Virus record (IMG/VR): IMGVR_UViG_3300030107_002418
Span: 1 to 30,444 of that record
Reading direction: 5' to 3' (one strand)
DNA: 30,444 bases
Origin: a virus
The translations under genes and the position numbers were made by a program. The notes beneath the pieces were generated by a model. The model searched no databases. It saw nothing but the letters and a program-made list of their open reading frames with translations, and was not told the origin of the DNA. Numbering within the stretch: position 1 is the first letter of the stretch; every line of letters starts with the position of its first letter. Positions 3,087 to 30,094 of the stretch are shown in pieces.

Positions 3087-3457
3087 TAGTCCTCCACTTT
3101 TTCGTAAGCTACACGATATGCTCTTTTTAAGAACTGTTGCTTGGTTAGTGTAGTAGCATTAGTCATTAAACCAATATGGTCTCTAACTTCTTGAGAACTG
3201 ATCGGAACAGTAAAATTCCCGTCCTTATCTTTGCGTAAAAGACTGCGGTCACTTCCTAGTAATTTCATACGAGTATAAAAGTCTTTCCAGTTCTTTTCAG
3301 TGATCTCACTCATACCTACTGACATAGTTGTCCAGATAAGGGTGTGTAACACCTCTGTCATTTGCCCCAAAGGTTCTCCGTCACCATCCCAGGTTCCGTC
3401 AGGTTCCCAAGTTTTAGTGCTTTCTTTTATTTTGCTGTAATCCCAATGTAACGCCAT
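3086..3457 (-). CDS. Hypothetical protein, 123 aa
   Basis: The N terminus contains a Trp/Gly/Asp-rich stretch (WEPDGTWDGDGEPLGQ) followed by predicted helices. There is no signal peptide or membrane segment. The start ATG overlaps the stop of the 39-aa upstream gene by one base. I do not recognise the family; a small helical phage accessory protein is the most that can be said. Confidence 0.65.
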   Translation of the reverse strand: MALHWDYSKIKESTKTWEPDGTWDGDGEPLGQMTEVLHTLIWTTMSVGMSEITEKNWKDFYTRMKLLGSDRSLLRKDKDGNFTVPISSQEVRDHIGLMTNATTLTKQQFLKRAYRVAYEKVED

Positions 3458-3576
3458 TAGTCTTCCTCCAATTTATACAGTAACTCAGCCACTTCCGTTC
3501 TTTTATCGAAATAGTTGTCATCGTATCTTTGAAGTGCTAATTTGATTAGCCGTATTTCTTCTTCAGTAAATTCCAT
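3457..3576 (-). CDS. Very small acidic protein, 39 aa
   Basis: The ATG (complement of 3574-3576) follows TTAGGAGAAATA, a good ribosome binding site. The frame runs 39 codons to a TAA that overlaps the next gene's ATG by one base (TAATG). The peptide begins MEFTEEEIRLIKLAL and is predicted to be a single amphipathic helical region. The strong site and the stop-start overlap make it a likely real gene despite its size. Confidence 0.6.
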   Translation of the reverse strand: MEFTEEEIRLIKLALQRYDDNYFDKRTEVAELLYKLEED

Positions 3577-3584
3577 TATTTCTC

Positions 3585-3704
3585 CTAATCTAAGTTTTCT
3601 TTTTCATTTTGTTTTTCATAACAAACTAAACAGTAAAAATGTCCTAGATGAAATAATCCAGGAATAGTTTGCCTACATAGGTCACACTTTAAATTGTTTT
3701 CCAT
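3585..3704 (-). CDS. Small zinc-ribbon-like protein, 39 aa
   Basis: The ATG (complement of 3702-3704) is preceded by ATTGGAGAAATAAT, nearly the same leader as at neighbouring genes. The 39-residue product has two CxxC pairs, C7/C10 and C25/C28, separated by 14 residues, the spacing of a minimal treble-clef or zinc-ribbon knuckle. It probably binds one Zn ion. Its partner is unknown, but such mini-proteins in phages often contact nucleic acid or host transcription factors (inference). It overlaps neither neighbour. Confidence 0.6.
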   Translation of the reverse strand: MENNLKCDLCRQTIPGLFHLGHFYCLVCYEKQNEKENLD

Positions 3705-3705
3705 A

Positions 3706-3882
3706 TTATTTCTCCAATAAGATTTTTATTAAATCTGACTCTGCCTGTTCTATAGCTGTGTAGAGTTTGTCTACATTTTCTTTAGCATACAAGCGGTCAG
3801 AATCTGCATGATCCGACCATGCCCTGATAGTTCCTAGACTACCAGCGACACGTCGAATTTCTTTTTTCTTATCTGGTTTCAT
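3706..3882 (-). CDS. Small hypothetical protein, 58 aa
   Basis: The ATG (complement of 3880-3882) opens a 58-codon frame ending at a TAA, the complement of 3706-3708, one base before the zinc-ribbon gene's ATG. The protein is basic at the N terminus (MKPDKKKEIRRVAG) and helical thereafter, with no cysteine or membrane segment. It overlaps the 3' end of the preceding gene by 14 bases. Function unknown. Confidence 0.55.
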   Translation of the reverse strand: MKPDKKKEIRRVAGSLGTIRAWSDHADSDRLYAKENVDKLYTAIEQAESDLIKILLEK

Positions 3883-4099
3883 TCACTCTAAAAACCCTCT
3901 TGCCAGGAGTACGACTAGCGTACTGGTTAGCGAGAGTGATTAACTCTGGGAAAGCCTGTGAAACAACTTCAAGTTGCTCGTCGTCTAAAGGACACAGAGT
4001 ATCGTGACATTTTTCGATAGCGTATTTGATTTCCCAAACATCAACGACCCCACAGTCTTCTATGTGCTCGTTTAATGATACAATTAAATCTGTCGCCAT
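3869..4099 (-). CDS. Hypothetical acidic protein, 76 aa
   Basis: First gene after the promoter at 4150-4177. A longer frame would need a TTG start at 4111, but that TTG lies in the leader TTGGAGAATAAT whose GGAGAAT is plainly the ribosome binding site for the ATG at 4099, so I use 4099. The protein (MATDLIVSLNEHIEDCG...) is acidic and helical with two cysteines in the N-terminal half. No known domain is recognised. Confidence 0.7.
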   Translation of the reverse strand: MATDLIVSLNEHIEDCGVVDVWEIKYAIEKCHDTLCPLDDEQLEVVSQAFPELITLANQYASRTPGKRVFRVNETR

Positions 4100-4126
4100 A
4101 TTATTCTCCAATTTTATTAAACATAC

Positions 4127-4143
4127 ATAGGGTTTACCCCTAT
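4127..4143 (-). promoter_or_regulatory. Inverted repeat at the predicted transcript start
   Basis: ATAGGG and CCCTAT form a perfect six-base inverted repeat with a five-base spacer. It starts seven bases downstream of the -10 hexamer of the promoter at 4150-4177, where the RNA should begin, so it would give a 5'-terminal hairpin or an operator on the start site. A related repeat (ATAGGT/ACCTAT) sits in the same place at 6035-6052. Confidence 0.5.
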
Positions 4144-4149
4144 ACTTAT

Positions 4150-4177
4150 ATGATACGCTAGATTAAACGACTCTAAA
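4150..4177 (-). promoter_or_regulatory. Leftward promoter, class A
   Basis: On the minus strand TTTAGA and TATCAT are separated by 16 bases. The spacer begins GTCGTTTA, closely matching the promoter at 9426-9453 (ATCGTTTA) and, in part, the one at 9840-9867. It lies in a short intergenic gap in front of the small-gene block that runs to the AlkB-like gene. Confidence 0.55.
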
Positions 4178-4205
4178 GCCATTTAACCTAATCCCTTTAC
4201 AATTG

Positions 4206-4445
4206 TTACTTAAGATCAGGGTCTTGTACCACGTAATTACGGTCGGGACCATAAAGCATTTCCTTAGCACTTGTCATTATTCGCCAAGTGTCCTCCGTAA
4301 AAGAGTTCTTTGGCAGATTCTCAAAGTGGGTAATTACTTCGTCTAACTTATTCATCACCTCTTTTTTACGGGCAATTTCTGCTTCTAATTGTTTTTTGTC
4401 GTGAGCATTCAGCTTCATCAACCATCTTTTAGGTATATTATCCAT
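4206..4445 (-). CDS. Hypothetical helical protein, 79 aa
   Basis: The start at 4445 is set by AAAGGAGGAACA directly upstream; a longer in-frame start at 4469 would put that site inside the gene. The protein is highly charged and helical, with a likely coiled coil around residues 15-45 (LNAHDKKQLEAEIARKK). It overlaps the 3' end of the zinc-finger gene by eight bases and is last in its block. Function not recognised. Confidence 0.65.
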   Translation of the reverse strand: MDNIPKRWLMKLNAHDKKQLEAEIARKKEVMNKLDEVITHFENLPKNSFTEDTWRIMTSAKEMLYGPDRNYVVQDPDLK

Positions 4446-5223
4446 TGTTCCTCCTTTTTTGAACAGCATCCAGTATCTCCGCTATTGATTTTCCGCTCTT
4501 AGTTTTCATGGGTGTTATTGTCGCAAACCCTGTGCCTCCTGCTTCTTCTGCTCGATACATTAATTCTTTTTCACTGAACTGTAGTTTAGGTCTTTTGCCA
4601 TGTCTTCTTTCGTTCATCTCTTTCATTTGTTTATCAAGATTACTGTTTTTGATAGAAGGTACTTTTCCTAAACCTAATTGTTTTCTACGATAGTTTCTTG
4701 CTGCTTTTACTCTTTGATAATTTTGTCCACTCCATTTAGCCTTATGTCTTTTTTCATAACGTGTAGGTTTTATTTGTAACTCATACATCATTATTCTATC
4801 TATCTCTTCCATGTCTTCATATATTGCACAAGCGTAACCATTATTTTGCATATCTGTTGTACAATCTGTGTAAAGTATTGCTTGTTCTAGTATATCTGGG
4901 TCAACGTAGCACTCCCCCATAACATCTGGTTCGTGAGGGTATCTGTTTTCTGTTAGACTTGTTAAAGGAAAAGGGTTCTTATTCTTTTCTTTATGTTGAT
5001 TTCTTTTGCATTCGTCTGAACAAATAATATCTGTTCCTAAAGGCATAGGATTTTCACAAACAGCACAGAGCCTTACTTTTTCTTCATTAGTTATATAGTA
5101 GTATCTGCGTTCTTTAACAGTTTCTGTGCTTTGGTATTTTTTACGAGTAGGACTACTCCTCACTACTTCCAGAACAGGAAGGAATTCTATAAATCTAATT
5201 AATCCTGTTGAAATCGTCTTCAT
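4438..5223 (-). CDS. Putative zinc-binding protein, 261 aa
   Basis: Near residue 55 a four-cysteine pattern is visible, LCAVCENPM then ICSDECKR (CxxC and CxxxC about 12 apart), which should bind one Zn ion. The middle contains a Cys/Asp-rich segment and the C-terminal third is very basic (ARNYRRKQLG, NERRHGKRPK), suggesting nucleic-acid contact. I do not recognise a catalytic domain. An earlier ATG at 5265 would overlap the cupin gene by 71 bases; the ATG at 5223 has AGAGGA upstream and overlaps by 29. Either start leaves the zinc motif intact. Confidence 0.65.
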   Translation of the reverse strand: MKTISTGLIRFIEFLPVLEVVRSSPTRKKYQSTETVKERRYYYITNEEKVRLCAVCENPMPLGTDIICSDECKRNQHKEKNKNPFPLTSLTENRYPHEPDVMGECYVDPDILEQAILYTDCTTDMQNNGYACAIYEDMEEIDRIMMYELQIKPTRYEKRHKAKWSGQNYQRVKAARNYRRKQLGLGKVPSIKNSNLDKQMKEMNERRHGKRPKLQFSEKELMYRAEEAGGTGFATITPMKTKSGKSIAEILDAVQKRRNNG

Positions 5224-13079: not shown

Positions 13080-13734
13080 AATCTTCACAAATCTCCTTAT
13101 AAGCACACCAACGACATGAGTTATCAGAAGGAGTAGCTATAAATTCCACATCGGTGCACATAATAGTTGCACGTTCAGTGAACTTAACTTGAACTTCCTC
13201 TATTTCCTCTCTCGTAAAAGCATGTCTTGTTATTTTTTGATGGTCTAAATACCATAACTCCGTCTCTACGTTTTCTAGGTCTGGAAAGCGACTAAAAACC
13301 CCACATGCATAAAGAGAACATTGATCTCTATACCCTGTCTGGTTAGACCAATATTTTCCTGTTTTAAAGTCGATTACCTTTCCAAAAGCTTCCTCTTTTA
13401 AAAAGGCATCTATTTTATAACGTCCCCAAGTAGTGTCCCCACTCCAAGGAGCAATAGCCCAGTCTTTATCAAAAGCCCAGTCCTGTTCTACGTGTACCTT
13501 TTCTGCTAACCAATCCTCTCTTAGCTTTTCAAAGGCTTCACTAAAAAGTTTTAATTCTCTAGGCATCACCTTTAACTTACCTACAATATAGTCCTCAGCT
13601 AATTGATGAATTCTAGTACCTCTTTGAGCAGCAGGATGCTGTTCCTGTGGTATTTTCTCCACATAACTATAGTACGCTTTCTTAGGACAACTTTCGTAAG
13701 TTCCTAACCTACTATACGACCAACGGTCTATCAT
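13066..13734 (-). CDS. Cas4/RecB-type PD-(D/E)XK exonuclease with Fe-S cysteines
   Basis: The fold is the PDDEXK_1 family. Visible: RGTRIHQLAEDY (H43), GRYKIDAFL (D109), VIDFKTGK (D122, K124) and the Q...Y pair QCSLY (Q138, Y142). Four cysteines, C16 plus C207, C210 and C216 (CRWCAYKEIC), are placed as in Cas4 and AddB to bind a 4Fe-4S cluster. Related phage enzymes process DNA ends in recombination-dependent replication. The start overlaps the thymidylate-synthase-like gene by four bases, so the two are coupled. Confidence 0.9.
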   Translation of the reverse strand: MIDRWSYSRLGTYESCPKKAYYSYVEKIPQEQHPAAQRGTRIHQLAEDYIVGKLKVMPRELKLFSEAFEKLREDWLAEKVHVEQDWAFDKDWAIAPWSGDTTWGRYKIDAFLKEEAFGKVIDFKTGKYWSNQTGYRDQCSLYACGVFSRFPDLENVETELWYLDHQKITRHAFTREEIEEVQVKFTERATIMCTDVEFIATPSDNSCRWCAYKEICEDYGKR

Positions 13735-14792
13735 AGTACTGCCTCAATGTCTTTATTTGATTCTTCCTTTTCTAACCTACGTTCTAACCACTGCTTACAA
13801 GCTAAAGCCCAGTCCTTTGCTTTAATTTGTTCTGTGGTCTTTAAAGCCATATCAATGGCAGCATCTTTGTATAGTGCGTAACTTTTAGCGATTGGCACAG
13901 CAACTTCTCTAAAGAAAGGATCAGTGTATGGTTTCTCTTCCAACTTATACGCTTTATGTTTGTACCTTTCTAGGTCGTACATAAACATAGTAAGATCACT
14001 AAGCCAAGCATTATAGTCTACACTTATCATACTGTAGGGTTCAACAGTACTAGACTCATAGATATTAGCCATTCCTGTTAACGGATACCTAGCTGAATAA
14101 TAATCAACCCTACCTATAGACTCATAGAGAGATTTATAAACTTCTTCGTAGGCATGAAAACTATCACTGATTTGATGATATTCACCAACCTCTACCCCTA
14201 TTGCCCCAGCCATAAATTCATGAAGCATGGACATATGCACAGCATTAGCACCGTATGCTCCCCAGATCATATCATTACTTCTACAACAAACTGTCATTTG
14301 TAGTTTGTGTTGTCTAATTTTAAAATAGATATTGGTATTACAAGGTACGTCTTTGCTTTGACGATTTAAAAGATCAAAAGGATCCCACATCTGTAAGACA
14401 CATCTTCTACTATTTGAGTCTTCTTGTAGAATTTTAATTATTTCTGGTATTTGGTCATAGTATTTTTGTCTCCAACGATGACCGTAAGCACCATTGAGTA
14501 TTTTACCATCATCACTAAAACCAGCCATACGCTTAACATAAAACGCTACAGTCTCTACATCCCTGTTACCATTTAACATCCATAAACCTTCTAGAAAATG
14601 GAAGAAAGGGTTAGCGTCTCTTTCCTTAGAAAATAAAACCCTTTCACACGGTTCTGTGTAAGTTGTGGTTACAGGGCAAGTGGATTCTATGACCCTTCCT
14701 GCCCTGCTTTCTCGCCACTCACCCTCTATCTCAAGGTGTTCTATCCCTAAGATAAGTGCGTCATTTACGTTTCTAGTCCTGATAACTTGCAT
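13731..14792 (-). CDS. Thymidylate synthase family enzyme (TMP or hydroxymethyl-dUMP synthase)
   Basis: ThyA-fold enzymes methylate, or in some phages hydroxymethylate, a pyrimidine monophosphate using a folate cofactor. Visible: SRRCVLQMWDP (phosphate-binding Arg and WDP), catalytic C151 in VPCNTN, RSNDMIWGAYGANAVHMS with N183 where Asn marks dUMP rather than dCMP as substrate, and the DSFHAY His-Tyr region. His after the catalytic Cys in ThyA is Asn here. The family cannot be split by eye into TMP synthase and dUMP hydroxymethylase. Next to a TET-associated-type glycosyltransferase and an aGPT-type enzyme, hydroxymethylase is a serious possibility. Confidence 0.85.
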   Translation of the reverse strand: MQVIRTRNVNDALILGIEHLEIEGEWRESRAGRVIESTCPVTTTYTEPCERVLFSKERDANPFFHFLEGLWMLNGNRDVETVAFYVKRMAGFSDDGKILNGAYGHRWRQKYYDQIPEIIKILQEDSNSRRCVLQMWDPFDLLNRQSKDVPCNTNIYFKIRQHKLQMTVCCRSNDMIWGAYGANAVHMSMLHEFMAGAIGVEVGEYHQISDSFHAYEEVYKSLYESIGRVDYYSARYPLTGMANIYESSTVEPYSMISVDYNAWLSDLTMFMYDLERYKHKAYKLEEKPYTDPFFREVAVPIAKSYALYKDAAIDMALKTTEQIKAKDWALACKQWLERRLEKEESNKDIEAVL

Positions 14793-15537
14793 ATGCTTTC
14801 TTCCAACTTATAACTACGTCCTGTCTTTTACCCCAACCCCAAGCAGTCTTAGTTTCTTTTTCCACAACACGTACAAAATCATCATGTAACTCTTTCATTT
14901 TTAAAGCAGATTCTGCCTGTACCTCTGGGCTTCTGTAAGTAGAACACCCCCCAGCAGCATTAGATTGCTTTTGTCCCTGAGCATAAAAGAAGCTAACTTT
15001 ATTAGGAACACCTGCCCTTAGTAATTGAAGTGCTACATCAAAGTCTTCCATAACAGTTACCCTACCGTGTTCAACTTTGTCTCTACAAATATCTAGGTCA
15101 TAAGCTAGTGCTCTTATATATCTAGTGTTTTCAGCTGATAAATCTTTTACTCGGTTATTACCTTCCCTAGCACTGATACCACAGTGCCCATAACCTTGAT
15201 CCATCCATTCATCCAATAACCCAAAAACTCCATTATATTCTTCTGGTTCTAGGTAACGTAAATGCCAATCGGTAGGACTTTTTCTTACATAAAACCTTAG
15301 ATCATCATCTAACATGACAATACGTGGGTCATCTGAATTATCCCAGATGTATTGCCTAACCCCTGAAATACCTTTGATTTCTTCGGGAACAATTAAAAGG
15401 TTATCATGTACTTTAGCGTAATCCTCTTCCTCAGAAGCATCTATAACTAAAGTAGTGTTAGCCTTCATGTCATCAGGCATAAAAGATAACGTAATTTGTT
15501 CTTTGTGCCTGCTCTTGCTCGGTATAAATATTCTCAT
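14773..15537 (-). CDS. TET-associated-type glycosyltransferase (TAGT)
   Basis: GT-A-fold glycosyltransferase family found in phages with modified DNA bases. Evidence: N-terminal MRIFIPSKSRHKEQIT (strand and R/K pattern), KGISGVRQYIWD, and the metal-binding acidic triad in IVMLDDDLRF (D77-D79 from this start), followed by VTVMEDFDVALQLLRAG, the usual second acidic motif. Such enzymes are proposed to transfer sugar to hydroxymethylated bases in DNA. ATG 15537 follows AGGAGG; a TTG at 15546 is one base from the site and unlikely. Overlaps its neighbours on both sides, so it is likely made together with them. Confidence 0.8.
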   Translation of the reverse strand: MRIFIPSKSRHKEQITLSFMPDDMKANTTLVIDASEEEDYAKVHDNLLIVPEEIKGISGVRQYIWDNSDDPRIVMLDDDLRFYVRKSPTDWHLRYLEPEEYNGVFGLLDEWMDQGYGHCGISAREGNNRVKDLSAENTRYIRALAYDLDICRDKVEHGRVTVMEDFDVALQLLRAGVPNKVSFFYAQGQKQSNAAGGCSTYRSPEVQAESALKMKELHDDFVRVVEKETKTAWGWGKRQDVVISWKKAYASYQD

Positions 15538-16397
15538 GTTTCCCAATCCTCCTTCTTTCTGTTTGGTTTATATTGTGCTCTTGGTTTACCTTGACCCAAA
15601 CGCACACGCTCATATTTATCAAATTCGCAAAGACAATGTTCTATATCTCTCATTTCTAGTACAGGCACATGGTTTTCTATATACCTGTCACTAATCATCA
15701 ATAGATCATACATCTCACGACAAGATTCTTTTTTAGATAAAGCATTTTTAATGTCTCTACCGTGTATTCGGTTTAATCCCCTAACTGCTCCTGGACCAGC
15801 GTTAGCCCAAGTATTTATATCATCGGCATTTTTTAAATATTTTGTATGCCGTAAGTCAGTGACTACCTCATAAGCCATAAACCCACTAAATCCAGCATAA
15901 GGGAGATATTCTTTCCAACTTAGTTCTAGAGAGTTCATGTGTAGTTCTGGTGGTTTATTATACAAAGGTGTTAATATTTTGTCTATAGTTTGTTCTACTT
16001 TAGTTCCGCCTAAAGTCCCAGTTAACATATACGCACCTGTGTAAACTTTTTTCTTAGCGTCCATCCTAGCTTGCATAATTTTCTTCACCCTCTCAGGTTC
16101 CCATGTATCGGGAAAACCTATCTCTTCTAAAGTAGATGGCCAATTGATCTGTCTAGCTACCGCCATAGCGAAAGGAACATTAGGATGATCCATATAAGGT
16201 ATTGACCAGTTTTGTCTGATCCATTTTGTAACGGTATCTAACTCTCTAAATACATTACAGAAACTATACTTAGTAAGTATTTCATCCTCTGTCCAAGGAA
16301 AGTCTGCTCCTGATTCTTTGTTTAAATATATGGCATGTCTTTCATTAATAAAATCAAAGAAATCCCTGTGTCTTTTTGCTTCTTCTAGTTCCATCAT
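15534..16397 (-). CDS. Alpha-glutamyl/putrescinyl thymine pyrophosphorylase-like (HMUDK helical-domain) protein
   Basis: An all-helical family linked to thymine hypermodification in phage DNA and related to helix-hairpin-helix DNA glycosylases. Visible: FINERHAIYL (16-25), NVFRELDTVTKWI (48-60), INWPSTLEEIG, and an HhH-like loop GPGAVRGLNRI (201-211). No P-loop kinase domain is attached, so any phosphorylating step must be elsewhere. These proteins are thought to flip out or displace an activated hydroxymethyl-uracil and attach an amine or amino acid; the product here is not predictable. A GTG start at 16406 is possible; ATG 16397 is used. Confidence 0.8.
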   Translation of the reverse strand: MMELEEAKRHRDFFDFINERHAIYLNKESGADFPWTEDEILTKYSFCNVFRELDTVTKWIRQNWSIPYMDHPNVPFAMAVARQINWPSTLEEIGFPDTWEPERVKKIMQARMDAKKKVYTGAYMLTGTLGGTKVEQTIDKILTPLYNKPPELHMNSLELSWKEYLPYAGFSGFMAYEVVTDLRHTKYLKNADDINTWANAGPGAVRGLNRIHGRDIKNALSKKESCREMYDLLMISDRYIENHVPVLEMRDIEHCLCEFDKYERVRLGQGKPRAQYKPNRKKEDWET

Positions 16398-16404
16398 ATA
16401 TACC

Positions 16405-16428
16405 ACTTTACTATAACTACTTTACTAT
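16405..16428. repeat. Short tandem repeat ahead of the HMUDK-like gene
   Basis: ACTTTACTAT occurs at 16405-16414 and again at 16419-16428, four bases apart, in the 40-base gap before the HMUDK-like gene. No promoter is clear. It may be a protein-binding site or chance in AT-rich DNA. Confidence 0.35.
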
Positions 16429-21596: not shown

Positions 21597-23045
21597 ATGC
21601 TAGAATACCAATATAAGACAAAACCTTATGATCACCAGAAAGATGCTCTTGAGAAATCATGGGAAGACACAGAACATGCTTTATTTATGGAGATGGGTTG
21701 TGGGAAGTCTAAGGTCTTATTAGATAATATTTCTATCCTTTATTTAAAAGGCTTAATAAATGCTGCGTTAATAGTTGCCCCTAAGGGAGTTTATGATAAT
21801 TGGGTTGACGGTGAAATACCTACTCATGTACCAGACTACATAGATAAACAAGTTTATAGGTGGTCTCCTTCCGAGACTCAGAAAAACCAAAAGGAAAGGG
21901 AAGAGATATTAAAGTTTTCTAAAGATTTAAATTTTGTTGTAATGAATATAGAGGCTTTTAGTACAAAGAAAGGTACAGATTTTGCTTCTAAGTTTTTACT
22001 TAATAAAAGGGTACTGTTTGCTATTGATGAAAGCACTACTATAAAGTCCCCAAGTGCTGCAAGAACAAAGAACACTTTACGTTTAGCAAAGTATGCAGTT
22101 CATAGAAGAATACTTACTGGGTCACCAGTTACTCGTAGTCCTTTAGACCTATATACTCAGTGTGAGTTTTTAGATCCAGCCTTACTGGGTTTCAGTAGTT
22201 ACTATAGTTTTAGAGCAAGGTATGCTGAAATGGTTGATAGAAGTGCAGGTGGTCGTACCTTTAAACAAGTTATAGGATACAAGAACTTAGATGAATTAAA
22301 CGAATTACTACAACCTTTTAGTTACCGTATATTAAAGAAAGATTGTTTAGACTTACCTGATAAAGTGTACACAACTCGTAAGATAGAGATGACACCTGAA
22401 CAAAAGAAAGCCTATGATGAAATAAAAAGATACGCTATGACTGAACTCAGTAATAGTGAACAAGTTTCAGTTACTTCGGTTATTACTCAACTTCTAAGGT
22501 TACATCAAATATCCTGTGGGTTTACTAGAACAGATACAAAACAAGATGTAGAGTTAAAGTCGGCTAGATTAGAGGAGTTAATGAGTATATTAGAAGAAAC
22601 AGAAGGAAAGGTAATAATATGGGCAAATTATCGTTACGACATACAGAGGATTTTAAGAGCCATACAAGACCAGTATGGTAAGGGCTCAGTAGGGGCTTAT
22701 TATGGGGACACCACAGACGATGAGAGACGTAATACAGTACAATTATTTCAAGATAAATCAAGTGAATTGAAGTACATCGTAGGTAACACACAAACAGGGG
22801 GATATGGAATCAATTTAACTGCTGCAAATACAGTGGTCTATTACTCTAATAACTTTGACCTTGAGAAGCGTTTACAGTCGGAAGACAGGGCACATAGAAT
22901 TGGTCAGAATAACAAGGTTACTTATATAGATATTATCTGTAAAAACACAGTAGACGAAAAGATTGTTAACTCATTAAAAGCTAAACAAGATATTGCTTCT
23001 AAAGTACTTGGTGAGGAAAAGTCTTGGAAAGACTGGATAGTCTAG
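21597..23045 (+). CDS. SNF2-family DEAD/DEAH helicase
   Basis: A two-domain superfamily 2 ATPase: Q-motif-like region with Q14, Walker A MGCGKSK (33-39), DExx box as IDEST, ILTGSP (motif III), and in the second domain GGYGINLTAANTVVYY and RAHRIGQ (motifs V and VI). SNF2-type phage helicases move along duplex DNA and may remodel replication forks or strip proteins. The length of 482 aa is normal for phage forms. It is the only rightward gene in the right-hand two thirds and overlaps the leftward ART-like gene's end by four bases. Confidence 0.93.
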   Translation: MLEYQYKTKPYDHQKDALEKSWEDTEHALFMEMGCGKSKVLLDNISILYLKGLINAALIVAPKGVYDNWVDGEIPTHVPDYIDKQVYRWSPSETQKNQKEREEILKFSKDLNFVVMNIEAFSTKKGTDFASKFLLNKRVLFAIDESTTIKSPSAARTKNTLRLAKYAVHRRILTGSPVTRSPLDLYTQCEFLDPALLGFSSYYSFRARYAEMVDRSAGGRTFKQVIGYKNLDELNELLQPFSYRILKKDCLDLPDKVYTTRKIEMTPEQKKAYDEIKRYAMTELSNSEQVSVTSVITQLLRLHQISCGFTRTDTKQDVELKSARLEELMSILEETEGKVIIWANYRYDIQRILRAIQDQYGKGSVGAYYGDTTDDERRNTVQLFQDKSSELKYIVGNTQTGGYGINLTAANTVVYYSNNFDLEKRLQSEDRAHRIGQNNKVTYIDIICKNTVDEKIVNSLKAKQDIASKVLGEEKSWKDWIV

Positions 23046-24172
23046 CCAAAATAAGATACGTTTTTGTACTGGGCTTTTAGTCTGGTTTCTTTATTAAACC
23101 CCTGCTTCTTTAAAGATTTAGAAGGTTTAACTTGAGTAACTTGTTTCTTTCTTAGATTAACTGGTTTAGGTAAAGCCGTGATTCCTTCACGAACTGGACC
23201 ACCCTCTTCTAGTTCCTTTAAGGGCTTAGGAGTATTGTACATTATTTGACCAGTGTCTTTATCCCTTACTCCTTTAATCATCTTTCCGTCAAGAACTTGT
23301 AGATTTAATGTGCCTTCCTCAACTGTGGTGTAACCTTTCCAACCTCTGTCTTTAACTCTTTCGGAAATTGTTTCTAAAACTTCCCAGTTTGATTTTTCCC
23401 AATCTTTTAAATCTTTTACATTATCCATTGTAACTTTATCAAATGCAGCTTCTTTTTCAGCTAGAACCCTATCATTCCTTAAAGTACCATCCTTTTTAAA
23501 TAAATTTTCTTTAATCTTTTTTCTTTCGTTCTTGTATTCGGTAGCTATGTATTCTCTGTGTTTAGGGTTTCTATAATCAAGAATCTTATTAGAAAACTTT
23601 TTATCCAACACCGTAGGTATAACTCTTGCATTAATGTCTTCCCCTTCTAACCTGTTAGCAAACTTATCAGCAAACTTATAGTCAGAAGTAACAGAGAAAG
23701 AAGGAGACCTACCTGCTGCCATTGGTCCAGCTGGGAGATGAAAATCTTTTAATTGTTTTGGAGCAGGAACTTGCACACCTAGTTCGTTCCCTCTAGAGCC
23801 CATCCTTTCAAACCTTATGGGGTCGTTTGTTCCATGGTAGCTGGGTTTGTCTACAAAAATTTCTTTGACATTCCCTTGACCTTTAACCTTAGGAGCACCT
23901 CTCAAAGCTGCGACTGGATTAAGAGATGCAGCTTTTGCACCTAAACTTTTAATACCACCTTGAGTACTTGCTGGTAATAAATTAAACCCAATCTTTCCTG
24001 CTCTACCGTAAGGAAAAAGCATTAATGCTGCTTCTACCCCAAGTGTTTTAGCCATCCTCTTACCTTCTTCAGTTTGAAGATAGTCTCGTTGAGCATTGAG
24101 TTCCTTTGTTCTCAAATCAGTGTATTGCTCAAGTAGGTTAGAAGGTGAGTTTATTCTTTCTCCTGTCAGCAT
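23042..24172 (-). CDS. Putative ADP-ribosyltransferase (ART-PolyVal-like)
   Basis: After a helical N-terminal region (1-105) there is YHGT (112-115), SFSVTSDYKFADKFA (158-172), and near residue 285 RGWKGYTTVEEGTLNLQVLD followed by MIKGVRD. This order matches the ART-PolyVal type of ADP-ribosyltransferase seen in phage polyproteins and injected effectors, with YHGT binding NAD and the last segment the usual end of the fold. A key catalytic Glu cannot be assigned with certainty. Placed downstream of the curli-like block in the late region, it may be carried in the virion to modify host proteins on entry (inference). Confidence 0.6.
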   Translation of the reverse strand: MLTGERINSPSNLLEQYTDLRTKELNAQRDYLQTEEGKRMAKTLGVEAALMLFPYGRAGKIGFNLLPASTQGGIKSLGAKAASLNPVAALRGAPKVKGQGNVKEIFVDKPSYHGTNDPIRFERMGSRGNELGVQVPAPKQLKDFHLPAGPMAAGRSPSFSVTSDYKFADKFANRLEGEDINARVIPTVLDKKFSNKILDYRNPKHREYIATEYKNERKKIKENLFKKDGTLRNDRVLAEKEAAFDKVTMDNVKDLKDWEKSNWEVLETISERVKDRGWKGYTTVEEGTLNLQVLDGKMIKGVRDKDTGQIMYNTPKPLKELEEGGPVREGITALPKPVNLRKKQVTQVKPSKSLKKQGFNKETRLKAQYKNVSYFG

Positions 24173-24181
24173 GATTTTATT

Positions 24182-25951
24182 TTAACTCCATGTGTAAACT
24201 TGTAAAGGCTTTTCTTTTCCTTTGACACTTAAAGGCTCTAGTTCTTTTAATTGATAATCACTTTTTATAGCTGTACTATATCCTATCAATACATCAACAC
24301 CTGCTTCCTTAGTTCCTGATTCTAATCGTGCACCTGTGTTAACTGCGTCCCCAATAGCAGTATAGTCAAACCTTGATTCACTACCCATGTTGCCTATAAC
24401 TGCGTAACCTGTATTGATACCCACACCAATAGCGACAGGGGGTAAGCCTTTATGAGCAAGTTCATAGTTTAAATCCTCCATGTTTTTCTGTATGTCTCTG
24501 GCACAGTCTATAGCTTTATTTTCATGAAAGTCTTGGTCTATCGGTGCATTAAATATAGCCATCATTGCATCACCTATATACTTATCCACCATACCACCAT
24601 GTTTTTGAACTGCTTTTTGTTGAGCAGTTAATGCTTTATTCATTATGTAAGTTACTTCCTCAGGCTCTAACCTTTCAGACATTGAAGTAAAGCCACGTAC
24701 ATCTGTGAATAAAAAAGTAGCGTATCTTTTTTCTCCACCCAGTTTTAAAAGATCAGGATTCTTTTGCAGTTGTTTAACTTGTCTAGGATCTAGGTAGTGT
24801 TCAAATTGTTTTTTAATTTGTTGTCTTAGTTTATATTGTTCTCTGAACCTTATATAAAATGCAGTAGAAGCAGTTATGAATTGGGAAATTAATGTCCAAG
24901 TAACGTCTATCAACACCCCTTGCTGTATTGTCCAATGACCGTAAAATCCAGTAGCAAACATAAAAAGGACAGCATAAATAATACCAAAAGTTATTCCGAA
25001 AAAGTTTATTAAAATCCAAATACAAACAATAGAAACAAGTAAAAGAGACAATTCTACAGCTATGGAGTAGTCTGGTATGAACGGACTATTTTCTATCAGG
25101 ATACTTTCTGCAAGTGCAGCTTGTATTTTGTGTGGCTCTAATAAACCAACAGGAGTAGACAATTGTGGCATAATACCTTTAGCAGTAAAACCAACAAACA
25201 CAAATTTATTTTCTACATCCATTTCTTTTAAATCTGTTTGTGGTGTGTCTACCCAACTAACCCATTTACGACCTAAAGAATCAACAGGAACAGGGGACAA
25301 ACCTTTTACTCTGATTTCCTCTAACCCATTCTCGTTTGTTTTTATAACGTAAGTATCCGCTCCTGCTAAAATCTTTAACACCTCTGTTCCGTATGCAGGA
25401 ACCCAACCATCAGGGGTACGAAGAAGTAGAGGTAATCTTCTAACAAGTGAATCAACATCAGTTCTTGCAACTGCTATACCCTGATTAGCATTATTTTTTA
25501 AAACCTGTATATTTTCTATAACACCTTTTGAATTAAGACCACCTTTATCATCACCTAGAATAACAGTACCAGTAGTTGGTGGGTACTTTCCGTTGTCGTT
25601 TTCAAACATAGCTAGGACACTTGGGGCAAAAGCTAAAGATTCAGTAAACTCAAAGTCACCCCCAAACCTGTCAGGTTGTGGGAAAGCTAATACCCAACCC
25701 ACACCTATTGCACCTTTGCGTAATAAGTTTATTTGTATTTGTGCAAGAGTCTGTCTAGATAGAGGATAACCACCTTCGTTAGCTATATCATCTTCTGTGA
25801 TGTTAAGTATAGTGAAATACCCTGAGGGCTTTTCCTCAGTAACTAATGAGTCAAATGTTTTTAATTTTAATATTTCTAAAGGAGTTAACTGAAAAACTAA
25901 CGGCAGTGTTAACACACTTAATAAACCTAGAAGAGTTAGCCATTTAGTCAT
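24182..25951 (-). CDS. CHASE2-domain membrane adenylate cyclase
   Basis: Class III cyclase making cAMP, with an extracytoplasmic CHASE2 sensor. Order: N-terminal membrane anchor (about 4-22), CHASE2 (about 30-295), three membrane spans (about 297-317, 320-337, 348-368), a linker and the catalytic domain (408-589). Metal-binding D417 (FTDVRGF) and D461 (YIGDAMM), adenine-selecting K457 and D529, and transition-state N538 and R542 (NTGARLE) are all present; K and D at the specificity sites favour ATP over GTP. So the enzyme looks active. It is last in the curli-like block, its ATG overlapping the curlin stop by eight bases. CHASE2 cyclases often neighbour FecR-domain genes in bacteria. Confidence 0.92.
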   Translation of the reverse strand: MTKWLTLLGLLSVLTLPLVFQLTPLEILKLKTFDSLVTEEKPSGYFTILNITEDDIANEGGYPLSRQTLAQIQINLLRKGAIGVGWVLAFPQPDRFGGDFEFTESLAFAPSVLAMFENDNGKYPPTTGTVILGDDKGGLNSKGVIENIQVLKNNANQGIAVARTDVDSLVRRLPLLLRTPDGWVPAYGTEVLKILAGADTYVIKTNENGLEEIRVKGLSPVPVDSLGRKWVSWVDTPQTDLKEMDVENKFVFVGFTAKGIMPQLSTPVGLLEPHKIQAALAESILIENSPFIPDYSIAVELSLLLVSIVCIWILINFFGITFGIIYAVLFMFATGFYGHWTIQQGVLIDVTWTLISQFITASTAFYIRFREQYKLRQQIKKQFEHYLDPRQVKQLQKNPDLLKLGGEKRYATFLFTDVRGFTSMSERLEPEEVTYIMNKALTAQQKAVQKHGGMVDKYIGDAMMAIFNAPIDQDFHENKAIDCARDIQKNMEDLNYELAHKGLPPVAIGVGINTGYAVIGNMGSESRFDYTAIGDAVNTGARLESGTKEAGVDVLIGYSTAIKSDYQLKELEPLSVKGKEKPLQVYTWS

Positions 25952-26726
25952 ACTGGGTTATAGTAACCGTTTTTGTGCAATTAGTTACACAATTGTATGT
26001 AGCTGTAAATGATTTGTCGTTAGCCCCACTTTGAGTAACTGCAACATTATAATCATCTTTATAGAAATTTAGTCTAGCAGTATGGTCTCCTGAACCTGAT
26101 TGAGTTATAGACGCTGTTCCATCATCTGCGTCTGAATACCAAAACACATCTGCATCATGGTCTCCTGAACCTGATTGTGTAATAGTTGTAGTGTTTCCGT
26201 CAGCGTAGTTATAGTTATATATGTAAGCGTTATGGTGCCCTGTTCCTGACTGAGTTATAGTGCTTGTAGCGTCATCTCCAAACGCCAATATCTTTGCGTA
26301 CTTATTGTTTCCAGTTTGAGTTATTGAATAAGTTGTGTCATCTCCTGCCATTAATATCTCGCCATGATTATCGTCTCCATTCTGAGTTATAGTGGCTGTA
26401 TTATCATCTTGGTCTAAATCTAAATATCCGTAATTGTCATCACCTGTCTGGGTTATCGTAAACTCATTATCTGAATGGTTTGACCATTGAGAATAGGCTT
26501 TAGTTGTGTTCCCTGAGCCTGTGGTTGTTAGATTGATAGTTGCCCTAGTACAAGTATGGGTTTGGTAAACTCCGTTGCTTAAACCACAATAGACAGTGGC
26601 ATTGTTTGTATATCCTACCTGCTTAATATTGATAACAGAATCATTCCCTTTCTGCTGTATAACAGTTGAATTGTTTCCTGCAAATAAAGGAAAACTAATC
26701 AGACTGATTAATAATAATCGTACCAT
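25944..26726 (-). CDS. Secreted curlin-repeat protein A (CsgA/CsgB-like)
   Basis: Curlin-type amyloid subunit. It has a signal peptide (MVRLLLISLISFPLFA, 1-16) and repeats opening with ITQxG at 91, 113, 135, 157, 182, 207 and 230 (22, 22, 22, 25, 25 and 23 apart), each with Asn/Asp after the QxG as in CsgA. An imperfect pair of repeats lies at the N terminus (IQQKG, IKQVG). Each repeat should form one strand-turn-strand coil of a cross-beta fibre. Four cysteines (C47, C59, C246, C250) are unusual for curlins. ATG 26726 follows GGAGGTGGTG; upstream GTGs are less likely. It should leave through the CsgG-like pore encoded upstream. Confidence 0.88.
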   Translation of the reverse strand: MVRLLLISLISFPLFAGNNSTVIQQKGNDSVINIKQVGYTNNATVYCGLSNGVYQTHTCTRATINLTTTGSGNTTKAYSQWSNHSDNEFTITQTGDDNYGYLDLDQDDNTATITQNGDDNHGEILMAGDDTTYSITQTGNNKYAKILAFGDDATSTITQSGTGHHNAYIYNYNYADGNTTTITQSGSGDHDADVFWYSDADDGTASITQSGSGDHTARLNFYKDDYNVAVTQSGANDKSFTATYNCVTNCTKTVTITQYD

Positions 26727-27759
26727 CACCACCTCCGTTAACTGTTATATCTATAAACTTACCAGCAGATAATATTTGTATATTATAAGCACTTCTTTTT
26801 TCTATTTGTAAATCTATTGTGTTTTCTACGCTTCTAAAGAATGTAAGCATCTCTCCTTCAACATAAGAATAGGTTTGTGCTTTAGCGTCAAAGCCAGCTT
26901 TTATTCCCTCTATGGTTACATCACCTATTTTAGACACTTCTTCCTCACCTTCTATAAACGCTAATAGGTCTATAAGAAAATCTACACTTAATAAGTCTAT
27001 AGATAACCTGTCTATTTCAAGTTCATCTTCTTCTAATTCATCTTCATCAAAGTTTTCTTCTAAAAAGTCCACGTCTAATACATTAGTGCTTTTAGTATTT
27101 TGTTCATCAACGGCTTCTTGTACTTCGTTAGGTGGATTAACTATAAGAAGGTTATTAATAAACCCCAGTGTCATATTTACTAAGGTCACTGGTTTGGTAG
27201 GAGGGGCTTCAGAAACACTAACCATAGTTGCCTGAAAGGGTTGGTTTAGAACTTCTATTCCTGCTGCTGTTTCAACAGTTATCTCACCTGAACTTGTTCC
27301 GTCTTCGTTTGGTAACAATATCACAAGAGACCGCCCTATTTCATCTACGGTCGTGGTGAAATCAGTTCCTCTAATAGCTATGTTGGCAGAGGGAGTTTTG
27401 ATAGATATATTTTCTTTGTTTATTCTTCCTAAAGCCCCTGTGATAAATCTAGCAGTACCACTAGCCATGTTCAAAGCTAACTTAGATTTACTAGGATCAG
27501 GGTCATAGATGTATTCATCAACTATAATTTTAGAATGTTCTGTTAGTTTTAATACAGAATCATCCAAAAAGGTAAGAGCCATACGACCATTACCTGTCCT
27601 TACATCATCGTTACTGAAAATACCTAAAGCAAGTTCTGCCAACAGTTTATCTCCATTCTGGTTACGGAGTATTTCTCCGTTACCTCTTAGTTCAGATATA
27701 GAACCTATTTCCGCATATAGCGGACTAGACAATAAGGCTATTAACAGCCAGTAGTGCAT
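26695..27759 (-). CDS. Secreted FecR-domain protein
   Basis: Signal peptide at 1-16 (MHYWLLIALLSSPLYA). A FecR domain is visible at about 40-160: RTGNGRMALTFLDDSVLKL and IAIRGTDFTTTVD are signature segments. A strongly acidic region follows at about 225-260 (LEENFDEDELEEDELE), then a beta-rich C terminus ending GGGDGTIIINQ. FecR domains in such proteins are periplasmic or surface sensors and scaffolds rather than the sigma-regulator of iron uptake. Between the two curlins and before the cyclase, it may sense or anchor the fibre. Overlaps the curlin genes on both sides. Confidence 0.85.
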   Translation of the reverse strand: MHYWLLIALLSSPLYAEIGSISELRGNGEILRNQNGDKLLAELALGIFSNDDVRTGNGRMALTFLDDSVLKLTEHSKIIVDEYIYDPDPSKSKLALNMASGTARFITGALGRINKENISIKTPSANIAIRGTDFTTTVDEIGRSLVILLPNEDGTSSGEITVETAAGIEVLNQPFQATMVSVSEAPPTKPVTLVNMTLGFINNLLIVNPPNEVQEAVDEQNTKSTNVLDVDFLEENFDEDELEEDELEIDRLSIDLLSVDFLIDLLAFIEGEEEVSKIGDVTIEGIKAGFDAKAQTYSYVEGEMLTFFRSVENTIDLQIEKRSAYNIQILSAGKFIDITVNGGGDGTIIINQSD

Positions 27760-28427
27760 TGGTCTATATTAATAGTACCGCTTGTTGAAGCAGCAACTAA
27801 ATTTATAGTATCCGTTACACCTGATGCACTTGTTGTTTGGTCAATGTCCACATCATTACTATCACCAGTAAGACTGACTGTTATTGATTTATCATCAGTT
27901 CCAATCTGAGTTACATCAATATCATTACTGTTGCCATCTATTGTCCAATTATTGACTGCACCTATAACTTCACTTCTGATGTTTAAATCATTAGTGTTAC
28001 CAGTTATAACCGCATCAAAGTTTCCGCCTGTGGCTGCACTTGAACTACCTTGTAACCAAGTCAATACGTTAGTATTACCTGTCGCACTGTAGTCAAAGTC
28101 AGAAGAAGTTACTGCTCCTGAACCACCTGCCGTAATTGTTGACGTATTAGAATCACCAATTTGGTACATAGTCCAACTAGAACTTGCTGCCTGAGCAATA
28201 GTATTAGCCAAAGTATTAGTATTACCTTGTTGCTTTATATCAGCAGTTATAGTTGCACCTGCAAAAGTAGACCTAGTGTTTGAAGTACCAACTTTATTAG
28301 TATTACCTATCTGGTCAATCGTTAATGTGAAAGCACCACCACCAGATTGTGTTAAATAAATATCATTATTCCCTGCGTACATAAAACTTGTAGAAAGTAA
28401 CAACAATACTTTAATTAGATTTTTCAT
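27741..28427 (-). CDS. Secreted curlin-repeat protein B (CsgB-like)
   Basis: Signal peptide (MKNLIKVLLLLSTSFMYA, 1-18), then imperfect curlin-type repeats: QIGNTN, QQGNTN, YQIGDSN, TGNTN, DGNSND, QIGTDD and TGDSND, with Ser/Thr/Ala-rich spacers. They are less regular than in the neighbouring curlin, as in a minor or nucleating subunit, but that role is inference. The C terminus is CTTGC (C224, C228). ATGA overlap with the CsgG-like gene links translation. Probably exported by that pore. Confidence 0.82.
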   Translation of the reverse strand: MKNLIKVLLLLSTSFMYAGNNDIYLTQSGGGAFTLTIDQIGNTNKVGTSNTRSTFAGATITADIKQQGNTNTLANTIAQAASSSWTMYQIGDSNTSTITAGGSGAVTSSDFDYSATGNTNVLTWLQGSSSAATGGNFDAVITGNTNDLNIRSEVIGAVNNWTIDGNSNDIDVTQIGTDDKSITVSLTGDSNDVDIDQTTSASGVTDTINLVAASTSGTINIDQCTTGC

Positions 28428-29257
28428 TTTTCCTCCTCACTCAATAGTGAATAATCAAAATCCCATAATTGTTTTTCAAGACCTTCTTTTACTAACGAAT
28501 ATACTGCCGTCTCGATAGCAGATCTCGTTGCATAGCCTGTAGCTTCTGTTTGTGTGTATCCTGTTTCTATTTCCACTAACTCCGTACCCAGTTCCGTGAA
28601 CCTGAAAACATCTCTACTTACACCTGCACTCAGTATAGTTTTACTAACTGTCGTGTTTAACATAACTTCACCTGTTTGAACTAAGACTGCTCTAACAGAT
28701 ACAGTTATATCGTCTTTACGGTATTGGTTTGTATTTCCAATACCTAAATACCTAGCACCATTTCCCCCAGTCATAATGTCTGAATCATAGGAAACAATAC
28801 CACCTTCTAAGATTATACCTGCAAATAGAATAGGTTTTAAAGTATTACCTTTTTCACCATCATAAGTTTGTCTGGTACTCTTAATTAATTGTCGTTCTTT
28901 AGTTAGATTATTTAAACCCACCCTTTCCACCACAACGAACCATTCTCCATTGCCTGCATTTCTTAAAGCCTCGATTAAATAATTTTCCGCACCTTGCGTA
29001 ACTGCTGTAGAAAACAGAGCCATTTTATTGGAAGGCTTACGTTGACCTGTTAGATCTTTAAATTCATAAACTGCAACTACAGCTTTTTGATTGGGTTTAG
29101 GTAAGTCTAAAAGTTTTTGTAAAGTTACTCTTTCTACTCTTGCATCTTCAGGGCAAGTAAGACCTACAATAAGACAGTTCTCGGCTCTAGGAGGGGCGAA
29201 GGATGCGCAACCTGTAAGAACCCCTATTAAAACTAAACACCACAGTCTGCGGTACAT
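28424..29257 (-). CDS. csgG: CsgG-like outer-membrane curli secretion lipoprotein
   Basis: CsgG forms the nonameric outer-membrane pore for curli subunits. Evidence: signal peptide with lipobox LTGC (14-17, lipidated C17), the family's VAVYEFKDLTGQ segment near 62-73, ALRNAGNGEWFVVVERVGL and LIKSTRQ typical of CsgG, and the later ILEGGIVSYDSD with an ITVSVRAVLVQTGEVM strand region. At 277 aa it is the size of E. coli CsgG. Lies directly after csgF and before the curlin gene. No CsgE-like partner is visible in the window. The transmembrane hairpin residues cannot be checked by eye. Confidence 0.93.
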   Translation of the reverse strand: MYRRLWCLVLIGVLTGCASFAPPRAENCLIVGLTCPEDARVERVTLQKLLDLPKPNQKAVVAVYEFKDLTGQRKPSNKMALFSTAVTQGAENYLIEALRNAGNGEWFVVVERVGLNNLTKERQLIKSTRQTYDGEKGNTLKPILFAGIILEGGIVSYDSDIMTGGNGARYLGIGNTNQYRKDDITVSVRAVLVQTGEVMLNTTVSKTILSAGVSRDVFRFTELGTELVEIETGYTQTEATGYATRSAIETAVYSLVKEGLEKQLWDFDYSLLSEEEK

Positions 29258-29763
29258 ATCCCAAATATTCCTATCGGTATTACAATCTCGGTTATAGAAC
29301 CATCCTCTGCGATAACCGTTAATGTTATGTATTCTCCGTCATTGGAGAATGATATTTGATTGCCTTCTAATTCTATTGTTCCACCAGTACCACCGTCTTC
29401 ATCAAATAACATGTCTGAAATATCTCTAGAGAGATTACTGAAGATACGGCTTTGTAAGTTATTTAAAAACTTATTAAGCGTGCTGTTCTCTATTTCTCTT
29501 TCTATCTCTTCCAATTCTGATTGGATCTTCTCTGCTAATTCATCTCTACGCTTAGTCTCTTGTTCATCTATAGTTAGATAATGTGCTGAAGCCCCTACAC
29601 CACTAAAGCTGGGGTTTTTAAATTCGTGAACTAAAGGGGAAGCTGCAGCTTTCCCTGTGTATAAAGAAACACTCACCATAATAATTACGGTAATCAGAAT
29701 AGAGGATATAAATAGTATTTCCCCAATATAATCATTTTTCTTATTAGTCTTTCCTTTGGTCAT
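29233..29763 (-). CDS. csgF: CsgF-like curli assembly factor with long signal anchor
   Basis: CsgF binds in the CsgG pore and directs fibre nucleation. After a 15-residue basic start and a membrane segment (16-35), a signal-peptidase-like AAAS precedes the mature N terminus with FKNPSFSG (48-55), matching the CsgG-binding FRNPNFGG stretch of E. coli CsgF. A helical middle contains LNKFLNNLQSRIFSNL, like CsgF's QAIQSQIL region, then a beta C terminus. It ends ICTADCGV (C170, C174), not seen in E. coli CsgF. The ATG overlaps the holin-like gene by 20 bases. Confidence 0.85.
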   Translation of the reverse strand: MTKGKTNKKNDYIGEILFISSILITVIIMVSVSLYTGKAAASPLVHEFKNPSFSGVGASAHYLTIDEQETKRRDELAEKIQSELEEIEREIENSTLNKFLNNLQSRIFSNLSRDISDMLFDEDGGTGGTIELEGNQISFSNDGEYITLTVIAEDGSITEIVIPIGIFGICTADCGV

Positions 29764-30094
29764 CTCTATCTGCTTTAGCTATTTTATTACTGTCGATCAA
29801 TTGAGGAACACCTAGTATAGTTTTTATTAAAGTGTCTTGCCTTATTATTTCGTTATCTAAAGACCTTACCCTATCAATTAAAGCTACTAGAATACCGTGT
29901 TGGGAATCCAGTTTAGTTCCTAATCTATCCTCCATGTTTGCAATTAACTCAGCTTGCTTATCGTCTAGGGTATCAAGTTTAGTTTCCATGCCATCAATAA
30001 TTCTATTGATCAGTTTCCAAATAAAGAAACCTAAACCACCTGCTGCTGCAATTGGAAAACCAACCTCGTTAATCAGTTGGACAGCTTGTTCCAT
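29744..30094 (-). CDS. Holin-like small membrane protein
   Basis: One N-terminal membrane helix (about 8-29: INEVGFPIAAAGGLGFFIW), followed by a long charged coiled coil (about 36-95) and a basic end. This topology occurs in BhlA/UviB-type small holins and in other phage membrane proteins; the assignment is by shape only. The ATG overlaps the stop of the structural gene by one base and the end overlaps csgF. If a holin, it would time lysis and its linkage to the CsgG/CsgF genes is notable. No endolysin is visible in the window. Confidence 0.5.
   Translation of the reverse strand: MEQAVQLINEVGFPIAAAGGLGFFIWKLINRIIDGMETKLDTLDDKQAELIANMEDRLGTKLDSQHGILVALIDRVRSLDNEIIRQDTLIKTILGVPQLIDSNKIAKADRDDQRKD

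Follow-up and report, generated by a model that had tools for sequence, protein, structure and literature searches.

The gene at positions 24182-25951 (minus strand) of the window, that is, the entire stretch of 30,444 nucleotides analyzed here, which corresponds to bases 1-30444 of a 63,629-bp virus record, encodes an intact TM-CHASE2-3TM-cyclase protein. Our preferred reading, to which we assign a probability of roughly 0.55, is that this cyclase is the signalling output of a phage curli module, with cAMP synthesis switched via a FecR-domain protein that acts on the CHASE2 sensor. The cyclase gene is the last in a minus-strand operon in which it is preceded, in the order of transcription, by the genes for a 116-aa protein, CsgF, CsgG, a curlin, a FecR-domain protein and a second curlin, and all junctions from the 116-aa protein gene through the cyclase are overlaps of 4-38 bases. 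With the CsgG pore, CsgF and two curlin-repeat subunits present, the locus is a curli (type VIII) secretion cluster. The genes of this region are as follows:

23042..24172, minus strand: 376-aa protein, 9 bases downstream of the cyclase
24182..25951, minus strand: putative CHASE2 class IIIb adenylate cyclase (Pfam, residue conservation, AlphaFold2/Foldseek)
25944..26732, minus strand: second curlin-repeat fibre protein, CsgA/B-like, 262 aa (Pfam Curlin_rpt, 7.4e-15, 5 stretches)
26695..27759, minus strand: FecR-domain protein, 354 aa, with a signal-like N-terminal helix and an acidic middle (Pfam FecR, 1.4e-11; alignment)
27741..28427, minus strand: first curlin-repeat fibre protein, 228 aa (Pfam Curlin_rpt, 2.8e-8)
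28424..29257, minus strand: CsgG outer-membrane secretion pore lipoprotein with an invariant Cys17 (Pfam CsgG, 3.6e-53; alignment)
29233..29763, minus strand: CsgF, 176 aa (Pfam CsgF, 5.8e-16)
29744..30094, minus strand: small membrane protein, 116 aa, with one TM and a coiled coil (PHROG phrog_18771, 3.6e-17)

Judging by the sequences of its replication and packaging proteins, the phage, a marine virus, is a relative of the HTVC023P type. Its DNA polymerase shares 52-54% identity with the polymerases of HTVC023P and 023Pt_psg01, and its large terminase 60% with that of phage 023Pt_psg01; both proteins are also 51-59% identical to their counterparts in DSL-LC04, for which a gammaproteobacterial host is listed. 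A contaminating bacterial contig is ruled out as the source of the cyclase: the virus record encodes a DNA polymerase, a primase and a terminase, and the survey of viral genomes suggested in the original prediction identified relatives of the cyclase encoded in at least 599 stretches of IMG/VR viral contigs. Elsewhere in the window, a thymidylate synthase, an HMC-glucosyltransferase-like protein and a phrog_2396 protein are encoded in a row (13731-16406, minus strand), a possible DNA hypermodification set.

The cyclase open reading frame starts with ATG and consists of 589 codons without internal stops. Its product matches the Pfam domains CHASE2 (residues 16-303, E=3.4e-23, 83 bits against a gathering cut-off of 26.3) and Guanylate_cyc (residues 411-583, E=6.9e-19, far over the gathering cut-off). 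The AlphaFold2 model (mean pLDDT 80.5), with helices at residues 2-20, 296-343 and 351-383, together with the Pfam matches, delineates a complete CHASE2 sensor architecture, in which an N-terminal TM helix and an extracytoplasmic CHASE2 domain are followed by three more TM helices and a cytoplasmic effector:

residues 2-20: TM helix
residues about 23-295: periplasmic CHASE2 domain
residues about 296-370: TM bundle
residues 371-402: helical transducer
residues 403-589: catalytic domain, with the key residues D417, K457, D461, T531, N538 and R542

All 78 viral homologues in an alignment have D417, K457, D461 and R542, and 77 of them have N538, so that the metal-binding Asp pair, the adenine-specifying Lys and the transition-state Asn and Arg are all there, as originally predicted. 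The second adenine-specifying residue had been taken to be an Asp, and this part of the prediction has to be corrected. D529 is conserved but is located at -9 from the transition-state Asn; the relevant position, seven residues before this Asn, is Thr531, where 71 of the 78 homologues have Thr, 6 have Ser and only one has Asp. Thr at the second purine-specifying position, combined with Lys (here Lys457), is the mark of class IIIb, and Asp that of class IIIa. By these residues, the viral cyclase is assigned to class IIIb (metal Asp pair, Lys plus Thr/Ser, transition-state Asn and Arg), and Thr531 rules out a class IIIa enzyme with a purine-specifying Asp. Foldseek detected similarity of the modelled catalytic domain to the solved class III cyclases CyaC (1wc entries) and CyaB (3r5g), with target-normalized TM-scores of about 0.8. 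The phage enzyme thus resembles Pseudomonas aeruginosa CyaB (3R5G), which in the alignment has Thr at the same site as Thr531, and Spirulina CyaC (1WC0-6) in the catalytic fold and residues, including the Thr at the second purine-specifying position. The inputs differ, however: the phage cyclase has a membrane CHASE2 sensor, whereas those of the class IIIb enzymes CyaB and CyaC are MASE2 or GAF/PAS.

Within the cyclase, median dN/dS values by the Nei-Gojobori method are 0.17 (CHASE2), 0.20 (catalytic part) and 0.32 (membrane bundle), and the neighbouring FecR and CsgG genes show values of 0.08 and 0.15, respectively. Because the values for the first two regions are so close (0.17 vs 0.20), the CHASE2 sensor is maintained as carefully as the enzyme itself. 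The lack of stops, the conserved residues and the low dN/dS (about 0.17) rule out a decayed gene; the view that the cyclase is not a decayed passenger is thus borne out, in terms of predicted activity, by the conserved catalytic residues and dN/dS of about 0.17-0.20. The cyclase is probably catalytically competent and active.

The second curlin gene overlaps the start of the cyclase gene by 8 bases. Across the region, internal promoter and terminator patterns are no more common than in shuffled sequence, and no RNA element or riboswitch was detected in the phage genome at Rfam gathering thresholds. The original prediction that the cyclase shares a transcription unit with fibre genes is supported, although it left csgF, csgG and the FecR gene unnamed. 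Among the proteins of the operon scanned against Pfam, CsgE, CsgC and CsgD were not found; a lack of CsgE in phage curli clusters is reported in PMC9599517. The AlphaFold2 model of the FecR-domain protein is of low confidence (mean pLDDT 57) and unusable beyond about residue 190. The C-terminus of this protein reads NGGxxTIxIxQxx, with an invariant Q352, and resembles the last curlin-repeat strand, without matching Pfam Curlin_rpt; judging from this motif, the strand might perhaps be a fibre docking or capping element. The 116-aa membrane protein, encoded upstream of and overlapping csgF, is 83-100% identical across many related contigs, shows a weak likeness to holins (phrog_4898, 4e-4) and contains no kinase domain detectable with Pfam, PHROG or NCBIfam. 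At the other end of the operon, the 376-aa protein has no family match in Pfam, PHROG or NCBIfam; it contains a YHGTNDP motif and is conserved only in the nearest relative of this phage (L002).

A phage cyclase as such is not a novelty, although the original prediction considered cyclases with such sensors unusual in phages. The cluster of curli, FecR and cyclase genes in phages has already been described by Wittmers et al. 2022 (PMC9599517), who found phage curli modules at all 65 GOV2.0 stations, reported that the cyclase and FecR are not present in bacterial curli operons, and inferred an alphaproteobacterial origin with transfer between viral families. The same gene order, including the cyclase, is annotated in Pelagibacter phage HTVC008M, whose cyclase is 34% identical to the one studied here, and in Methylophilales phage Melnitz. 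The present locus shares its genes and gene order with this pelagiphage T8SS cluster, as well as the phage types involved (HTVC023P-type podovirus; myoviruses). It belongs to a separate genome and differs in the gene preceding csgF, which encodes the 116-aa membrane protein here and a histidine kinase there; in the podoviruses of that study, the kinase, outside the core T8SS, is always present (PMC9599517). Furthermore, the text of that study does not mention CHASE2. New in the present work are the CHASE2/class IIIb assignment and the near-constant link to FecR, along with the pairing of FecR adhesins with CHASE2 cyclases in bacteria and the observation that the likely host apparently lacks a cAMP system.

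Among the 80 stretches fetched from the at least 599 that matched, every contig that was long enough displays the order csgF-csgG-curlin-FecR-(curlin)-cyclase. When the search was started from csgG instead, FecR accompanied csgG in all 36 loci with at least 6.5 kb of downstream sequence, and the cyclase was located within 8 kb of csgG on the same strand in 34 of these; in the remaining two, the cyclase gene is either displaced or inverted. The inverted cyclase is retained at 3157-4917 (minus strand) of locus L262; the displaced one, about 7 kb away in locus L250, is retained as well and is seen in part, at 14442-15213 (plus strand), being cut by the locus end. Contig L088, assigned to a Maricaulis MAG, carries curli and FecR genes over 11.8 kb, with no detectable cyclase.

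A phylogenetic tree of 60 sequences places the viral cyclases in a single group (support 100/99), within which the podovirus-type group that includes the cyclase analyzed here is separate from the myovirus group. The bacterial sequences nearest to this clade are alphaproteobacterial, with moderate support (90/87), a placement that agrees with the origin inferred in PMC9599517. At E<=1e-30, the cyclase alignment matched proteins in 165 of the 289 alphaproteobacterial and 144 of the 274 gammaproteobacterial genomes, among them further class III cyclases whose similarity to CHASE2 is weaker. Examination of the 20 best CHASE2 cyclases from each class revealed a FecR-domain protein encoded within 8 kb in 7 alphaproteobacterial and 2 gammaproteobacterial cases, directly adjacent to the cyclase in five of these, and no csgG nearby in any of the 40. 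RTX, cadherin, VWA or Calx-beta domains mark most of the bacterial FecR neighbours examined as adhesin-like. By these domain contents, FecR and the CHASE2 cyclase of bacteria look like a regulatory pair for surface structures. The phage arrangement is similar in that the gene for a FecR-domain surface protein adjoins the cyclase gene in Alpha- and Gammaproteobacteria, too, but the bacterial partner is mostly a large RTX/cadherin/VWA adhesin, whereas in the phage it is a 354-aa protein encoded between curlin genes.

In the reverse direction, csgF and curlins, but neither FecR nor a cyclase within 8 kb, were found at five csgG loci from Alphaproteobacteria and one from Gammaproteobacteria. A bacterial csg operon as the direct source of the whole unit is rejected on the strength of these six loci. 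Within this small sample, the curli module and the FecR/cyclase module are joined only in phages, which fits the findings of PMC9599517. In the search for bacterial csg genes, 12 of the 13 genome-contig hits turned out to be phage contigs binned into MAGs. Such phage curli contigs (L086-L096 and L098) occur in MAGs named Synechococcus, Maricaulis, Flavobacteriales, Planctomycetaceae, Pelagibacter and others, which serve as species representatives, resulting in false calls of curli plus cyclase in bacteria.

Taken with the gene order, these pairings suggest how the module could work. Pores of CsgG and CsgF, together with curlin subunits, would be produced late in infection; from the periplasm, the FecR-domain protein encoded between the curlin genes would report the state of the pore or of fibre assembly to CHASE2, which would then switch cAMP synthesis in the cytoplasm. 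Late expression is suggested because the operon adjoins virion genes on the same strand. Fibre production itself is only predicted, given that infection with Melnitz proceeds without clumping (PMC9004378). The original prediction that CHASE2 may sense the fibre or the periplasm appears reasonable in light of the overlapping array with curlin genes, the adjacent FecR gene and the bacterial FecR-adhesin pairing, from which we infer the coupling itself, and sensing of fibre secretion in the periplasm through FecR is plausible. In Sinorhizobium meliloti, signalling by the outer-membrane barrel NsrA runs via CHASE2 cyclases (PMC13001267); CyaD1, CyaD2 and CyaK resemble the phage enzyme in having a periplasmic CHASE2 domain, and the signal there arrives via the outer-membrane barrel. 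The S. meliloti output is the CRP-family regulator Clr, whereas no such regulator was found in the presumed host order or in the phages. In a Burkholderia biofilm operon, FecR is paired with a CHASE2 histidine kinase (PMC5192318).

A difficulty for the fibre-sensing reading lies in the output, which is left unexplained by the lack of a cAMP receptor in the presumed host order and the phage records; the L088 contig, in which curli and FecR occur with no cyclase detected, also speaks against it. Candidatus Pelagibacter HTCC1062 is the isolation host of HTVC008M, which carries the same operon, and is also infected by HTVC023P and HTVC027P, the nearest relatives of the phage in culture. We searched 147 genomes, some of them incomplete, of the order that includes a Pelagibacter-titled MAG and is presumed to be SAR11 from this title, a GC content of 28-29% at the loci inspected and the size of 1.0-1.5 Mb. 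Neither class III nor class I cyclases were detected in any of the 147. Weak matches to the cNMP-binding domain were found in 10 of these genomes, the proteins concerned being about 870 aa long (one is cut at 372), compared to cNMP-binding proteins in 106 of the 142 genomes sampled across the whole class (Alphaproteobacteria) as a control. One of the proteins from the presumed SAR11 order, inspected over its full length, has no likeness to CRP and, judged by eye, no recognizable phosphate-binding Arg motif. At L103 and the similar loci of the 10 genomes, cNMP-binding-like domains are fused to a seeming acyltransferase and an SGNH-type region, and the nucleotide pocket seems degenerate. The phages do not appear to supply a receptor either, with no cNMP-binding protein or CRP encoded in this genome and 23 related phage records. 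Because no convincing cAMP receptor is found on either side, the proposal that the phage alters host catabolite control is doubtful, and if the host is SAR11, a host CRP is an unlikely target of the cAMP. Tentatively, the phage might install a second-messenger circuit that is absent from its SAR11 host, consisting of a fibre-responsive cAMP synthase and a new phage or host cAMP target, a possibility that we rate well below the fibre-sensing reading itself.

Alternatively, the host could be another marine proteobacterium with CRP-type receptors, in which the cyclase would feed an ordinary cAMP-CRP circuit, in keeping with the original prediction. The similarity of the polymerase and terminase to those of DSL-LC04 and the common occurrence of cNMP-binding proteins in other Alphaproteobacteria are compatible with such a host, but the isolation of HTVC008M and of the closest cultured relatives on HTCC1062 makes it unlikely. 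Somewhat less likely still, cAMP could be a blunt tool outside CRP (ATP drain, export or inhibition of competing phages), in which case fibre sensing would set the timing only. Such a role would accommodate the missing receptor; however, regulated signalling is suggested by the conservation of CHASE2, which is as strong as that of the catalytic domain, and by the constant presence of FecR. In a further proposal, the csgGF pore times lysis, and the cyclase and FecR are its trigger rather than a fibre sensor; this reading draws on the holin-like small membrane protein encoded directly upstream and on the lysis role favoured by the authors of the Melnitz study (PMC9004378); we regard it as improbable, given that the holin matches are weak and that genes for two curlin-repeat subunits adjoin the pore gene, as in a real fibre system. 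Finally, it is very improbable that the cyclase is functionless cargo carried over from a bacterial surface module, as the L088 contig could suggest: the 78 diverse viral homologues retain the catalytic residues under purifying selection, the linkage to FecR is near-universal, and the viral cyclases form one clade across two phage morphotypes.

If the cyclase is active and controlled by fibre secretion, viruses of cells that rank among the most abundant in the ocean would make a second messenger, and cAMP would arise in hosts that are seemingly unable to make or read it. Few ligands of CHASE2 sensors have been described, and the FecR-CHASE2 pairing leads to a general hypothesis, namely, that CHASE2 responds to the state of a surface adhesin as reported by FecR.
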